64,000 nt of DNA, from the NCBI GenBank assembly GCA_028284765.1, contig JANQRA010000002.1, positions 429,832 to 493,831 on the forward strand, read 5' to 3'. Under the pieces are notes generated by a model. It did no database searches. It saw only the letters and a list, made by a program, of their open reading frames with translations, and had not been told where the DNA came from. Below, one piece after another: positions 1,354 to 36,034 of the stretch. Made by a program: the position numbers and the translations under genes. Position 1 is the first letter of the stretch. Each line of letters begins with the position of its first letter. Source of the stretch: Acidimicrobiia bacterium (GTDB lineage: Bacteria; Actinomycetota; Acidimicrobiia; Spongiisociales; ZC4RG35).

Positions 1354-3396
1354 TCACGCTGCGAGTCGGCTCATGAGTCGAGCCAATCCATCGTGGGTGA
1401 GAGACTGTGGCCCATCGCTGAGCGCTTGATCAGGGTCCGGATGCACTTCGACCATCAGGCCATGCGCGCCGGCGCCCACAGCTGCCATGGCAAGTGGATG
1501 TACCAGATCCCGATCACCAGCCGCATGCGACGGGTCGACGATCACTGGAAGATGTGAGCGTCGCTGAAGAACTGGGACCGCGGTTACATCGAGCGTGTTG
1601 CGAGCAGCCGTTTCGAAGGTCCGAATCCCACGCTCACACAAGATCACCCGCTGATTTCCGCCGGCCAGGATGTATTCCGCAGCCTGTAGAAGCTCGTCGA
1701 TCGATGCGCTGAGCCCGCGTTTCAGCAACACGGGCTTGTTCACCAATCCCACCTCGGACAGAAGCGCGAAGTTCTGCATGTTTCGGGCACCAATCTGGAG
1801 GACGTCGACCATGTCGGCCATTCGCTCCACATGTTCCGGTGCCCCCACCTCGGTAACCACAGGTAGGTCGTAAATACGGCCGGCCTCCGCCAGAAGCTCC
1901 ACGCCTTCCCACCCCAGACCTTGAAAGCTGTACGGACTGGTCCGTGGTTTGAAACAGCCACCCCTCAGCACATTTGCCCCCGATTCTTTGACTACTCGGG
2001 CAGTGGACATCACCTGATCTTCAGATTCGACCGAGCACGGCCCGGCAATCATGACCAGCTGGTCACCTCCGAACGCAACCCCTCGCACATCGACAATCGT
2101 GTCCCGGCCTTGCTCGGATCTCTCCGCCAACCTGGCTGAGCTTGCGGGTGAGGGCTTGCGGTCAACCGCAATCTCGCGAACCTGGAGAGGTGCTGATGGC
2201 GTTTCTACCCGATGCGGTCGAAGATCGGTTGAGGGATACGTCCCGAGAATTCGCAGGTAGGAAGTGTGGGTCTTCACAGCTGCGAGAGCCGATGCAACGT
2301 GAGGGTCAGCTCGATTCCCCTCGAGGTCGAGGTAGAAAAGCTCCTGCCACGGATCCTCGAGCAGCGGCCGGGACTCCAGCTTCACCAACGGGATCGAGGC
2401 CTTGGCGAATACGTCCAGGACCTTTGCCAGGGCGCCAGCGTCATTGCTGACTGTGAGCACAACTGAGGTCTTCGCGGGAACGTTTTCCGCCACTGGCACC
2501 GGAGTAAGGGAGACCGCAACGAAGCGAGTCTGGTTCGACGTCCTGGTGTTGATCTCATCCTCGATCACATCGAGGCCAAACAGATCCGCGGCTTGCTGGC
2601 CGGCGATTGCAGCGACGGTGGGGTTATTGATCTCAGCGATTCTCTGAGCGGACTTCGCAGTATCCGTCGTGTAGACGACTTCGACGTTCTTCAGCTCTGA
2701 CAAGAATTCGGCACATTGAGCGACGGCCTGTGGATGACCGTGGATCGTCTTGAGGTCGGCCAACTGTGAGCCGGGAACACCGAGAAGGCAGTGGACCACC
2801 TTGACCTTCACCTCTCCAACGATCGTCAGCTTGGTGTCCAGGAGTTGGTCGTACACCTCGGCGATAGCTCCCGAGGTGGTGTTTTCGATCGGAAGAACAC
2901 CGAGGTCGGCACGGCCTTCCTTCACGGCCGCGACCACTTCGGAGAAGCGATCACACGAAACCCAAGAACGCTTCTCGACCGTTGGAGTCAAGGAGAGAGC
3001 GGCCCTATGGCTGTTGGAACCGTCGACCCCTTGGATGGCGATGGTGACTTCAGAATTTGTCCCACTTTCGGCCTGCTGGGCGTGCTCGAACTGGACTCGG
3101 AGCGAGTCAGCCATGATCTGTTCCCAAAGGCGAGACACGAGATCTGGGTTCAGCGAGTGGTCCTTGGCTGCCGCTAGACGCTCCAGGATCACCTTCTGTT
3201 CGCGACTGTCATCGCGAAACGGGGTCCGGGTGAGACTCTTGTTGTCTGCAATTCGCCGAGCTACAGAATTGCGAGACGCGAGCAGCGACAGGATTTCATT
3301 GTCAATGCGATCTACTTCCTGGCGTAGATCGTCTATTCGAGGGCCTTCGGGTTCTGAGTTGGAAGAGTCGAGAATGCCGTACATCGGTATCTCCAT
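1354..3396 (-). CDS. Fused chorismate mutase / prephenate dehydratase / ACT / DAHP synthase
   Basis: One uninterrupted 680-residue frame holds four domains. Residues about 20-100 are an AroQ-type chorismate mutase (IDDLRQEVDRIDNEILSLL). Residues 115-297 are prephenate dehydratase with the TRF motif at 291-293. Residues 309-390 are an ACT domain with GAL and ESRP (341-344), the phenylalanine-binding signature. Residues 430-680 are a type I-beta DAHP synthase (AGPCS, FKPRTSPYSFQGLG, GARNMQN, VIVDPSHAAG). The chain thus joins the first step of the shikimate pathway to the two steps that turn chorismate into phenylpyruvate. CM-PDT and CM-DAHPS fusions are well known; all activities on one chain is unusual. 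A Phe-rich leader and terminator precede it, and tyrA is divergent. The alternative start at M5 changes little. Confidence 0.93.
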   Translation of the reverse strand: MEIPMYGILDSSNSEPEGPRIDDLRQEVDRIDNEILSLLASRNSVARRIADNKSLTRTPFRDDSREQKVILERLAAAKDHSLNPDLVSRLWEQIMADSLRVQFEHAQQAESGTNSEVTIAIQGVDGSNSHRAALSLTPTVEKRSWVSCDRFSEVVAAVKEGRADLGVLPIENTTSGAIAEVYDQLLDTKLTIVGEVKVKVVHCLLGVPGSQLADLKTIHGHPQAVAQCAEFLSELKNVEVVYTTDTAKSAQRIAEINNPTVAAIAGQQAADLFGLDVIEDEINTRTSNQTRFVAVSLTPVPVAENVPAKTSVVLTVSNDAGALAKVLDVFAKASIPLVKLESRPLLEDPWQELFYLDLEGNRADPHVASALAAVKTHTSYLRILGTYPSTDLRPHRVETPSAPLQVREIAVDRKPSPASSARLAERSEQGRDTIVDVRGVAFGGDQLVMIAGPCSVESEDQVMSTARVVKESGANVLRGGCFKPRTSPYSFQGLGWEGVELLAEAGRIYDLPVVTEVGAPEHVERMADMVDVLQIGARNMQNFALLSEVGLVNKPVLLKRGLSASIDELLQAAEYILAGGNQRVILCERGIRTFETAARNTLDVTAVPVLQRRSHLPVIVDPSHAAGDRDLVHPLAMAAVGAGAHGLMVEVHPDPDQALSDGPQSLTHDGLARLMSRLAA

Positions 3397-3451
3397 GAAG
3401 TGACGGCGCGCGGTGCGCTAAGGGTGGACGAATGATCAGCGGAGGTGGGGT

Positions 3452-3470
3452 AAAACGGCGCTACGCGCCG
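3452..3470 (-). terminator. Attenuator terminator of the phenylalanine leader
   Basis: On the minus strand CGGCGC-GTA-GCGCCG forms a 6-bp GC stem (3456-3470) followed directly by TTTT (3452-3455) and lies upstream of the fusion gene start. The leader-peptide stop codon is in the loop. The minus-strand segment GCGCT inside the leader ORF (near 3487-3493) can pair with AGCGC of the 3' arm, giving a possible antiterminator. A second pairing, AGAACAGC with GCTGTTCT inside the leader, could form the alternative hairpin. Confidence 0.75.
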
Positions 3471-3538
3471 AAATAGCCGTCAAAGAACAGCGCGAAGTGG
3501 GACCGAGCGTCCCGAGCGGTGTTGGCTGTTCTCTTCAT
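3461..3538 (-). CDS. Phenylalanine-rich leader peptide (attenuation peptide)
   Basis: This 25-codon ORF lies between the predicted promoter and the aromatic fusion gene. It begins ATG AAG AGA ACA after a GGGGA Shine-Dalgarno and ends TAG within the terminator loop. Residues 14-23 read HFALFFDGYF: four Phe and one Tyr in ten residues, immediately before the terminator. That is the layout of enterobacterial pheL-type leaders, where stalling at Phe codons under starvation favours an antiterminator. The peptide has no function expected beyond being translated. The assignment rests on position and composition; I know of no homologue. Confidence 0.82.
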   Translation of the reverse strand: MKRTANTARDARSHFALFFDGYFGA

Positions 3539-3547
3539 GAATCCCCG

Positions 3548-3576
3548 ATTGTGTCGGTAAAAACGTTTCCCGTCAA
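3548..3576 (-). promoter_or_regulatory. Promoter of the leader and fusion gene
   Basis: On the minus strand TTGACG (3571-3576) and CACAAT (3548-3553) are separated by exactly 17 bp, giving a good -35 and a fair -10 for a housekeeping sigma factor. Transcription would begin just upstream of the leader-peptide Shine-Dalgarno. A divergent TATTGT at 3583-3588 could serve tyrA, whose ATG at 3598 would then be nearly leaderless. Confidence 0.65.
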
Positions 3577-4651: not shown

Positions 4652-5239
4652 ATGAGACGAGTATTCACCGTTGCCGTGCTGGCAATCACGTTCTTGGGGC
4701 CGATGACAGCGCCTCCCGCCAAGGCATGTTCGTGCGTTCTTCCAGAGGACGTCCAGGAATGGGTCGACGATGCGGAGGCGGCGTTCGTAGGAACAATGAT
4801 TGACATCAGACGAGACGGCCTGGACGACTTCGAAGTGGAATACGTGGTCGAGGTGGAGACATGGGTCAAAGGCGACGCTGGAGATCCCATCACGGTGATC
4901 TCAGGCCAAGGAAGCGGCGACTGTGGATTCGGCGACCAACGCGGTGCCAGGATGGGCGCGCTCTTGCACCAAGAAGGCGACCAGCTGTACAGCAACATCT
5001 GCAGCCAAATCGACCCTGAGACCCTGCTCGCTTCCGCAAAGGAGCCCACGGCAGGTCCGACCGAACCGACCACTCCACCCCTCGTCGTCGAGCCTGAAGC
5101 CCTTCAACCCGAAGAGTCCAACACTCAGATAGTCGCAATGGTGGTCCTCGGTGCGACCCTCATTGGCCTTGTCCTGCTGATCACAATGACGAAGGGGCCC
5201 CACAGGGCCCCTTCGTCGGACAGAGACGGTTCGGGTTAG
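4652..5239 (+). CDS. Secreted NTR/TIMP-like protein with C-terminal membrane helix
   Basis: The 195-residue product begins with a signal peptide (RRVFTVAVLAITFLG) ending at AKA. The mature N-terminus would be CSCVLPEDVQEWVDDAEAAF, which resembles the Cys-x-Cys start of netrin/TIMP-like domains. A Pro/Thr/Glu-rich stretch follows, then one membrane helix (IVAMVVLGATLIGLVLLIT). The start at 4652 is chosen over 4577 because it begins the signal peptide, follows GAGG and avoids overlap with tyrA. The last codons lie in a perfect hairpin shared with the convergent neighbour. The function is unknown; extracellular binding or inhibition is a guess from the fold. Confidence 0.7.
   Translation: MRRVFTVAVLAITFLGPMTAPPAKACSCVLPEDVQEWVDDAEAAFVGTMIDIRRDGLDDFEVEYVVEVETWVKGDAGDPITVISGQGSGDCGFGDQRGARMGALLHQEGDQLYSNICSQIDPETLLASAKEPTAGPTEPTTPPLVVEPEALQPEESNTQIVAMVVLGATLIGLVLLITMTKGPHRAPSSDRDGSG
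5188..5217. terminator. Hairpin between convergent genes, likely bidirectional terminator
   Basis: GACGAAGGGGCCC (5188-5200), loop CACA, and its exact complement (5205-5217) form a perfect 13-bp stem. There is no clear U tract on either side. It lies inside the last codons of the plus-strand gene and just past the stop of the minus-strand gene, where a two-way terminator would be expected. Confidence 0.6.
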
Positions 5240-5916
5240 CCGCCCAGGTACTCGACGGTGACCTTGATAACGGGGTTGTCCCAGTCGTGCACGGAGGGGT
5301 CGAGATCTGCCCGACCCTTGATGCCGTGGTGAACCTTGACGACGCCATTCTCGGCGATCGCAGGGTTCGACATGCCTGTCTGACCCAGACCATCACAAGG
5401 TGGAACCAAGTCGGCATAGGCCTCAGTGTTCTTCTCGGAGCCGGCGTCGTAGGCACGTCCGTAGAAGGTCCGGACGTCGGCACCACCAAGACGCGCATTT
5501 CGAATTGAAGCGAACCCGTCGTTGGTGCAGATGAGCATCCCAGCCAAACTCAGCCGCGAACCTCGTGAGTCTGACCCGATGATCACCTCGGCCGAACCAC
5601 CGGGAGCGATCGGGCCTCCACCAGCAACCGCAACCTGATTCACGAGCGAGTTGGCATTCAGCTCGTCCACAAGCACCGGAACACCGCCATTCTCAGCGAG
5701 CTGAGCGAGACCAGGAGACGCTGCCCGTCGATGTCGCCACAGTCGGAAACTCCGGTCATGGGTAGCCACAACCATTGGAGTCATAAGTTGACCGTCGGTC
5801 AGATTGGTGATTGTCACCCGAAACGTGGGCTCCTCGTAATCGCTGGCTGATGCCGGCACCACCATCAGCGTCATCAACATTGCCAACGCAACCACGATCG
5901 TCGTTGATCGCTTCAT
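5236..5916 (-). CDS. Secreted spondin-domain protein
   Basis: The 226-residue product has a signal peptide (TTIVVALAMLMTLMVVPASA). Its body matches the bacterial spondin_N pattern: FRVTITNLTDGQLMTPMVVATH, then a segment of the type SPGLAQLAENGGVPVLV, and a C-terminal beta-rich end. Such domains are predicted extracellular beta-sandwiches; the ligand is unknown. It converges with the NTR-like gene, overlapping at the stop codons, and is divergent from a two-component system that might control it. Confidence 0.8.
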   Translation of the reverse strand: MKRSTTIVVALAMLMTLMVVPASASDYEEPTFRVTITNLTDGQLMTPMVVATHDRSFRLWRHRRAASPGLAQLAENGGVPVLVDELNANSLVNQVAVAGGGPIAPGGSAEVIIGSDSRGSRLSLAGMLICTNDGFASIRNARLGGADVRTFYGRAYDAGSEKNTEAYADLVPPCDGLGQTGMSNPAIAENGVVKVHHGIKGRADLDPSVHDWDNPVIKVTVEYLGG

Positions 5917-34618: not shown

Positions 34619-36034
34619 CTAACCGCTCGTCTTCGCCACTTCGGCGAGGAACTCGGTGTTGGACTTGGTTGTCTTCAAACGATCGATGAGAAGCTCGATC
34701 GCGGCTCCGGGCTCGAGAGCGAGTAGCACTCTACGAAGCTTCCAGACCTGCGTCAGCTCCCTACGGTCGAACAACAGCTCTTCCTTACGTGTTCCCGACA
34801 TCTCGATGTTGACCGCGGGATAAATCCGCTTGTCAGCGAGCTTGCGGTCGAGATGAAGCTCCATGTTGCCGGTGCCCTTGAACTCCTCGTAGATGACCTC
34901 GTCCATCTTGGACCCGGTCTCGATGAGAGCAGTCCCGAGGATGGTCAGCGAGCCGCCTTCCTCGATGTTTCGGGCGGCACCGTAGAAACGCTTCGGTGGG
35001 TACAACGCTTGTGAGTCCACACCACCTGAGAGGATTCGACCCGATGCGGGCGTTGCGAGGTTGTGGGCTCGGGCGAGGCGGGTGATCGAGTCGAGCACGA
35101 TGACCACATCGGTGCCCTGTTCAACAAGCCGCTTGGCACGCTCGATTGCCAGCTCCGAGACCTGCGTGTGCTCTTCGGCGGGACGGTCGAACGTGGAGTA
35201 GATGACCTCGCCCTTGACGGTCCGCTGCATGTCCGTGACCTCTTCAGGCCGCTCATCGACGAGGACAACCATCAGATAGCACTCTGGATTGTTCTCGGTG
35301 ATCGACTGAGCGATCTCCTGGAGGACGGTCGTCTTTCCAGCCTTGGGCGGAGACACGATCAGTCCACGCTGTCCCTTACCAATCGGAGCAATCAGATCAA
35401 CGATCCGGGTGAGGATGTTGTTGGACTTGCCTTCGACCTCGAGTCGGAGACGCTCGTCCGGGAAAAGCGGGGTGAGGTTCTCGAACTTGGGCCGCTTCAT
35501 AGCCTCGTCTGGATCCACGCCGTTGACCGACGCGATCCGGACGACAGCCGGGAACTTCTCCTTGGAACGCGGCGGGCGGATTGGGCCCGACACGATGTCT
35601 CCCTTGCGCAAGCGGAACTTGCGCACCTGATTGGCAGACACATAGACATCTTTCTCACCGGATTTGTATCCGGTGACGCGGAGGAAGCCATACCCCTCGG
35701 GAAGGATGTCGAGGATGCCCTCACGCACCTCGAGCTGGTCTTCTGGGATTCTCTCCTCTTCGCGACGACGCCGGTTGCGCTGGCGCCCGCCACGGTTTTG
35801 GCCGTCCCTGTTCTCCCCACCTTGATCCGACTTGTTGTCGGGCTTCTCAGTGCGGGCTGTGGCCTTCGGAAGATCAACAGCGTCTTCCGGCTTGGCCTCG
35901 GCCACCTCACCTGCGTCCATCAACGCGGTGATCAGTTTGGACTTTTGGAGTCCTTCGGTGTCGATGCCGGCGGCCTTGGCGACCTCTCTCAGTTCATCGA
36001 TTGGTTTGCTCTGTAGTTGAGCTCGTGTGGTCAT
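34619..36034 (-). CDS. rho: Transcription termination factor Rho
   Basis: A 471-residue hexameric RNA helicase. A Rho_N domain (residues 1-45), a basic Arg/Gly/Asn-rich insert ([15 protein letters not shown]), the cold-shock-like RNA-binding domain ([14 protein letters not shown]) and the ATPase core (Walker [26 protein letters not shown]-type loop) are visible. The basic insert is typical of actinobacterial Rho. ATG 36034 follows AAGGAT. The 162-bp leader between thrC and rho holds no recognised element, though Rho autoregulation there is plausible. Confidence 0.96.

Follow-up and report, generated by a model that had tools for sequence, protein, structure and literature searches.

We suggest, with a probability of about 0.5, that a fused aromatic-pathway gene is controlled by a ribosome-mediated, phenylalanine-responsive attenuator that uses neither an intrinsic terminator nor an antiterminator. 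The gene lies in the window, i.e., the stretch of 64,000 nucleotides of the Acidimicrobiia bacterium contig JANQRA010000002.1 that was analysed. Judged from its sequence, the leader is very probably a Phe-responsive attenuator of some kind, and if this is true, control of transcription would be coupled with ACT-domain feedback on one and the same enzyme.

The regulated gene (1354..3384, minus strand) encodes a protein of ~676 residues in which chorismate mutase II, prephenate dehydratase, an ACT domain and type I DAHP synthase are fused. Three of these parts were identified with Pfam (PF01817, PF00800 and PF00793), while the ACT part was confirmed via an alignment to the prephenate dehydratase 2qmx. 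The fusion joins the first step of the aromatic pathway, DAHP synthase, to the phenylalanine branch in a single enzyme, and no other prephenate dehydratase is encoded in the genome (a single PF00800 match). Its start is most likely at 3384, with the Shine-Dalgarno sequence GGAG (3391..3394, minus strand) ahead of it, rather than at 3396; the pairing partner of this GGAG is not conserved. The neighbouring gene on the plus strand, tyrA, encodes prephenate dehydrogenase and is divergently oriented. All parts of the leader are on the minus strand in the gap between these two genes, and the whole leader region, from the promoter to the start of the fusion gene, covers 3576-3384.

The promoter proposed in the first-pass annotation is found at 3576-3548 on the minus strand, with the -35 element TTGACG at 3576-3571, a spacer of 17 nt and the -10 element CACAAT at 3553-3548. 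It is the only promoter-like site of the region (shuffles give 0.1 +/- 0.3). The -10 element ends 9 nt ahead of the ATG of a short open reading frame, so the transcript is predicted to start within a few bases of this codon and the leader ORF would be near-leaderless. A Shine-Dalgarno sequence, GGGGA, had also been assigned to the leader; this coincides with the predicted transcript start or precedes it, the relatives have no conserved one there, and we do not retain it. The ORF itself (3461..3538, minus strand) has 25 codons, reads MKRTANTARDARSHFALFFDGYFGA and ends with the stop codon TAG at 3463-3461. It is Phe-rich as described, with four Phe and one Tyr among its last 11 residues. The GC stem and the TTTT are both present as well; however, the stem holds the stop codon and therefore overlaps the ORF rather than coming after it. 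An Rfam search of the window found no leader family at gathering score, and only a tRNA matched. Taken alone, the fold of the window leader is not unusual (z -0.77); it is the comparison across genomes, not the fold of a single leader, that gives significance.

Full-length fusions were identified by protein search in 13 genomes of the family of the window genome, itself included, and scanning the class (395 genomes) brought three more, all in a second family of the order. No fusion was found outside the order in a phylum-wide draw of 396 genomes, nor any further one among the 14 genomes of the second family. The conservation of the leader in relatives with the same gene had been set beforehand as the refutation test, and the leader is kept at 16/16 full-length fusion loci, 13 in the same family and three in the second. 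The claim that an ACT-containing aromatic fusion enzyme is preceded by a Phe-codon leader is strongly supported by this. Each of the 16 genes has an upstream ORF of 20-25 codons that ends with FG(A/V)-stop, at a distance of 63-87 nt from the fusion gene. The distance from the -10 element to the leader ATG is 6-10 nt in all 16 genomes; a stricter pattern, TTGAC[AGT], a spacer of 17-18 nt and a -10 element ending 7-10 nt before the ATG, is present in 15 of them, with a weaker site in G008. The tree of the fusion proteins shows deep divergence, where G000, G008 and G016 are on long branches and G000 and G008 are only weakly placed.

Covariance models of the leader point to the same gene. The model R1, made from the first 13 leaders and run over the 395 class genomes, matched only its own 13 genomes and G255 (E 6.8e-4). 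This leader, from the other family, was found blindly and turned out to precede the 14th fusion gene. The model R2, made from all 16 leaders and run over the 138 genomes of the order, found every true leader at E <=1.4e-8, with the next match at E 0.0014. No confident leader without a fusion was found in the 138 order genomes (R2) or the 395 class genomes (R1). The next match (L170, in G234) reads FF..GFFGV-stop and has a 7 bp stop-loop hairpin with a UAA loop; it was rejected as probably a chance match, because it has no ATG, GTG or TTG start and argR/argG-like genes are located downstream. Five weak matches (L171-L175, E 0.01-0.05) contain no convincing leader, the minus-strand stretches being possibly slightly offset. 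Nor was such a leader found before unfused prephenate dehydratase or DAHP synthase genes of the same family and order, a check that included two paralogues of the window genome (L136, L137) and in which 4 or 5 prephenate dehydratase stretches without a match could not be judged.

The residue common to all leaders is Phe, not Tyr. There are 2-6 Phe in the last 12 codons of 16/16 leaders, while Tyr occurs once or twice in the leaders of one family and not at all in the other. The three leaders of the second family, which end with RFGFAFSFGA, RLGFLAFSFGA and DFQFGFAFFFGA, have 3-6 Phe and no Tyr. The remainder of the peptide is not conserved. As the codon-position substitution counts of the leader ORFs show no third-position excess, coding is deduced from the ORF, its start, its stop and the Phe codons; with an unconserved peptide, this suggests that the ORF is retained for its codons and structure instead of its product. 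The arrangement is that of a ribosome-mediated attenuator, i.e., codons for the putative end product near the end of a short leader ORF, placed between the promoter and a gene of the pathway of that amino acid.

All 36 pairs of leader segments were examined for genome-specific pairing. Two conserved helices were found, P1 (z -4.6) and, more weakly, P2 (z -2.5), and no others; four further pairs have p 0.01-0.04, which is near the chance expectation for 36 tests. The conserved parts and their pairing are thus what the comparison across genomes shows. In P1, leader codons 2-6 pair with the stretch of Phe codons: the 5' strand AGAGAACAGC (3525..3534, minus strand), which takes up leader codons 2-5, pairs with 3491-3482, where the 3' strand GCTGTTCTTT (3482..3491, minus strand) comprises the regulatory Phe codons. 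The complementarity AGAACAGC/GCTGTTCT, noted previously, is part of this 10 bp helix. With the set reduced to 12 groups, one representative genome each, the strands pair with their own partners at -199.4 kcal/mol vs -154.8 +/- 10.7 for swapped strands, and none of 50,000 permutations was as good. Compensatory changes are also seen, as one pair goes from A-U to U-A and to G-C in G026 and G017 (ten sequences, one register), and the strands covary, G-U pairs included. The other complementarity proposed as an alternative pairing, GCGCT/AGCGC, is not conserved across the genomes.

P2 is a hairpin of 6-7 bp with the stop codon in its loop (CGGCGC-GTA-GCGCCG in the window, 3470-3456, minus strand). 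Its 5' arm CGGCGC (3465..3470) covers the codons for Phe-Gly-Ala, its 3' arm is GCGCCG (3456..3461), and the loop at 3464-3462 includes the TA of the TAG stop. Over the 16 sequences, P2 is 99% paired and two pairs have double-sided changes. This count was reached in 5/500 shuffles (control (a)), so the case for P2 comes mainly from its strict conservation. The TTTT after P2 is unique to the window genome: the relatives have no U-tract there, with 1-4 T in the next 8 nt, and five consecutive T occur in none of the 16 leaders. Elsewhere in the window, at least one terminator is of the canonical U-tract type, with a stem of 14 bp, so the missing U-tract at the leader is not a mere habit of the genome. 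Between convergent genes, at 5195-5240, the window also has a perfect hairpin of 11 bp, GACGAAGGGGC/GCCCCTTCGTC, a likely bidirectional terminator with a weak U-tract.

Between P2 and the Shine-Dalgarno sequence of the fusion gene there is an unstructured, C-rich and G-poor tract (3398..3455, minus strand), which begins with TTTTACCCCACCTCCGC and holds a conserved CACCYCACCYCCGC-like motif. Its composition over the 16 genomes is C 50.8%, T 25%, A 13% and G 12.1%, in a window of ~60% GC overall. The mean of C minus G is 19.9, vs 0 +/- 5.2 in random 50-nt windows, and by this measure the fusion gene ranks first among the 28 upstream regions of the window. A tract of this kind 3' of the leader ORF is what a Rho-dependent leader attenuator has, and Rho is encoded in the genome (window 34634-36025). 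The tract is a candidate Rho-utilisation region, which is no proof of Rho action.

P2 could be the effector by itself, halting or pausing the polymerase without a U-tract until a ribosome on the last Phe codons blocks the hairpin. It is the most conserved part of the leader and contains the stop codon as well as the last Phe codon, an overlap of regulatory codon and stem that resembles the actinobacterial ilvB leaders (PMC1262725). However, a stem of just 6-7 bp that lacks a U-tract is a poor candidate in an organism that uses the canonical type of terminator, and the C-rich tract would be left unexplained; we regard this direct occlusion as unlikely.

Control could instead act on translation, with the C-rich, anti-Shine-Dalgarno-like CACCUCC motif masking the Shine-Dalgarno sequence of the fusion gene for as long as no ribosome is stalled in the leader. 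The motif does resemble the 16S anti-Shine-Dalgarno sequence, and near-leaderless ORFs are also seen in Cys leaders. The masking itself is not conserved, as the partners of the Shine-Dalgarno sequence vary from genome to genome, its pairing with the motif has no genome-specific excess (z +0.9), and the spacer pairs with it less well than swapped segments do (z +3.2). Translational attenuation of this kind is therefore improbable.

The mechanism suggested by the first-pass annotation was the classical one of pheL, in which the stem would terminate transcription intrinsically and a competing antiterminator would form from the upstream complementarities. The window leader, with its TTTT after the stem and the order of its parts, looks like pheL, and canonical Phe/Tyr attenuators are present elsewhere in the class, before DAHP synthase genes that are not fused. 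The stem is conserved, but the U-tract that would make it a terminator is not, and the stem encloses the stop codon. For an antiterminator, the Phe-codon strand was compared with the two arms of P2, and neither shows conserved, genome-specific pairing with it (z -0.4 and +0.8). A pheL-type attenuator thus appears quite improbable. Finally, it is hardly credible that the inverted repeats are DNA operators for a regulator of the divergent tyrA/fusion pair and the ORF incidental: the palindromic DNA of P2 and the divergent gene order in the window would fit, but the start, stop and promoter spacing of the Phe-rich ORF are fixed in 16/16 genomes and the two strands of P1 covary, G-U pairs included, both of which argue against it.

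With no terminator, no antiterminator and no masking of the Shine-Dalgarno sequence, the likeliest effector of the Phe-responsive attenuator would be Rho, acting at the C-rich tract, although we give Rho itself only even odds. From the conserved parts we infer the stalling on Phe codons, the direction of the response and the involvement of Rho and P2, as follows. RNA polymerase would start a few bases from the leader ATG and a ribosome would load onto the near-leaderless ORF. When Phe-tRNA is ample, the ribosome would pass the Phe codons, halt at the stop codon and depart; P1 and P2 could then fold, shutting the leader to more ribosomes, and Rho on the exposed C-rich tract would end transcription ahead of the fusion gene or soon after its start. 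A shortage of Phe-tRNA would stall the ribosome at the Phe codons, where it would prevent P1 from closing; a ribosome at the last of these codons would also cover the 5' arm of P2 and adjoin the Rho tract, with readthrough as the outcome. P2 may be a pause, an aid to termination, an occlusion point or a reporter of ribosome release. Two points of geometry speak against this scheme. If the final Phe codon occupied the A site, the ribosome would reach only to about the stop codon, and it is hard to see how Rho could then be kept from the tract at +8 and further downstream. P2 would be free to form if the stall came at the upstream Phe codons, 8-9 codons ahead of the stop. We put forward tentatively, as a joint reading that we rate at somewhat less than even, that this is a distinct architecture, in which P1 pairs the start of a near-leaderless ORF with its sensor codons, P2 has the stop codon in its loop and a Rho tract follows directly, so that one stalled ribosome would open both helices and block Rho-dependent termination with no need of an antiterminator, and that the leader has been passed on along with a single fusion gene of the aromatic pathway.

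Canonical aromatic attenuators were also seen at other loci. In a family of small genomes (~1 Mb) of the same class (L129, L131-L135), a Phe/Tyr attenuator upstream of DAHP synthase has the leader (L)NN(T/A)YFYF(S/R)EHI-stop, the terminator AATCGGGC-AAAA-GCCCGATTTTTTT and the antiterminator TTGCCC/GGGCAA. Another Acidimicrobiia contig (L067) has the leader MSTVYVFAFYFAGERPRAMGTR-stop, a GC stem and TTTTT ~154 nt upstream of a DAHP synthase ORF. In Gemmatimonadales (L032, 2830-2990), MVSLQTRYFYFTNAGAARSPSGVGSVL-stop and a seven-T terminator stand before a prephenate dehydratase/DAHP synthase gene, an independent Phe/Tyr attenuator. Short ORFs rich in F and Y, with a T-run, are found upstream of type I DAHP synthase in KSB1, Thermodesulfovibrionales, Nitrospirae and Chloroflexi (L036, L039, L042, L052, L059, L085 and L097), e.g., MAHFFYFRSPA-stop and MNHFYFYRNPA-stop. 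Since the canonical type precedes unfused DAHP synthases in the class and elsewhere, the departure from it at the fusion gene is more notable.

A comparative survey from 2005 reported no RNA control of Phe or Tyr genes in Actinobacteria (PMC1262725), and among the papers searched none deals with leader attenuation in Acidimicrobiia. The leader described here is a conserved and testable candidate for a Phe attenuator where that survey reported none, without the textbook terminator and antiterminator. It shares with pheL/pheA of enterobacteria and with trpL-type leaders the short, product-codon-rich ORF before an enzyme of the same pathway and the structured leader RNA. Unlike these, it has no U-tract terminator or antiterminator, its ORF is near-leaderless, its stop codon is in a hairpin loop and its Phe codons pair with the start of their own ORF.

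Leaderless poly-cysteine attenuators of mycobacteria were reportedly described by Canestrari 2020. Candidates for Cys leaders of mycobacteria are given in PMC1262725 and PMC4633059; for actinobacterial Cys leaders Rho was proposed since terminators are missing (PMC1262725), while PMC13236596, where it cites Canestrari 2020, places the mycobacterial cysteine genes under translation attenuation. As in these, a leaderless short actinobacterial ORF has its regulatory codons near the stop and no obvious intrinsic terminator; the fusion leader differs in its Phe codons and aromatic pathway, two conserved helices, a conserved C-rich tract and no masking of the Shine-Dalgarno sequence seen. The actinobacterial ilvB leaders share the overlap of regulatory codons and hairpin (PMC1262725), but their terminator has a U-tract, and the M. 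tuberculosis leader has an antiterminator too, as described for mycobacterial ilvB1 (PMC13236596); the fusion leader has neither.

The fusion leader may also be a compact case of how a leader ribosome could control Rho. In E. coli tnaC, a ribosome beside a Rho-utilisation tract just after the leader stop codon decides termination, and the proposed ribosome of the fusion leader would likewise adjoin a Rho tract directly past the stop. tnaC responds to free Trp through nascent-peptide arrest in a catabolic operon, whereas the fusion leader would respond to codon starvation in a biosynthetic one.
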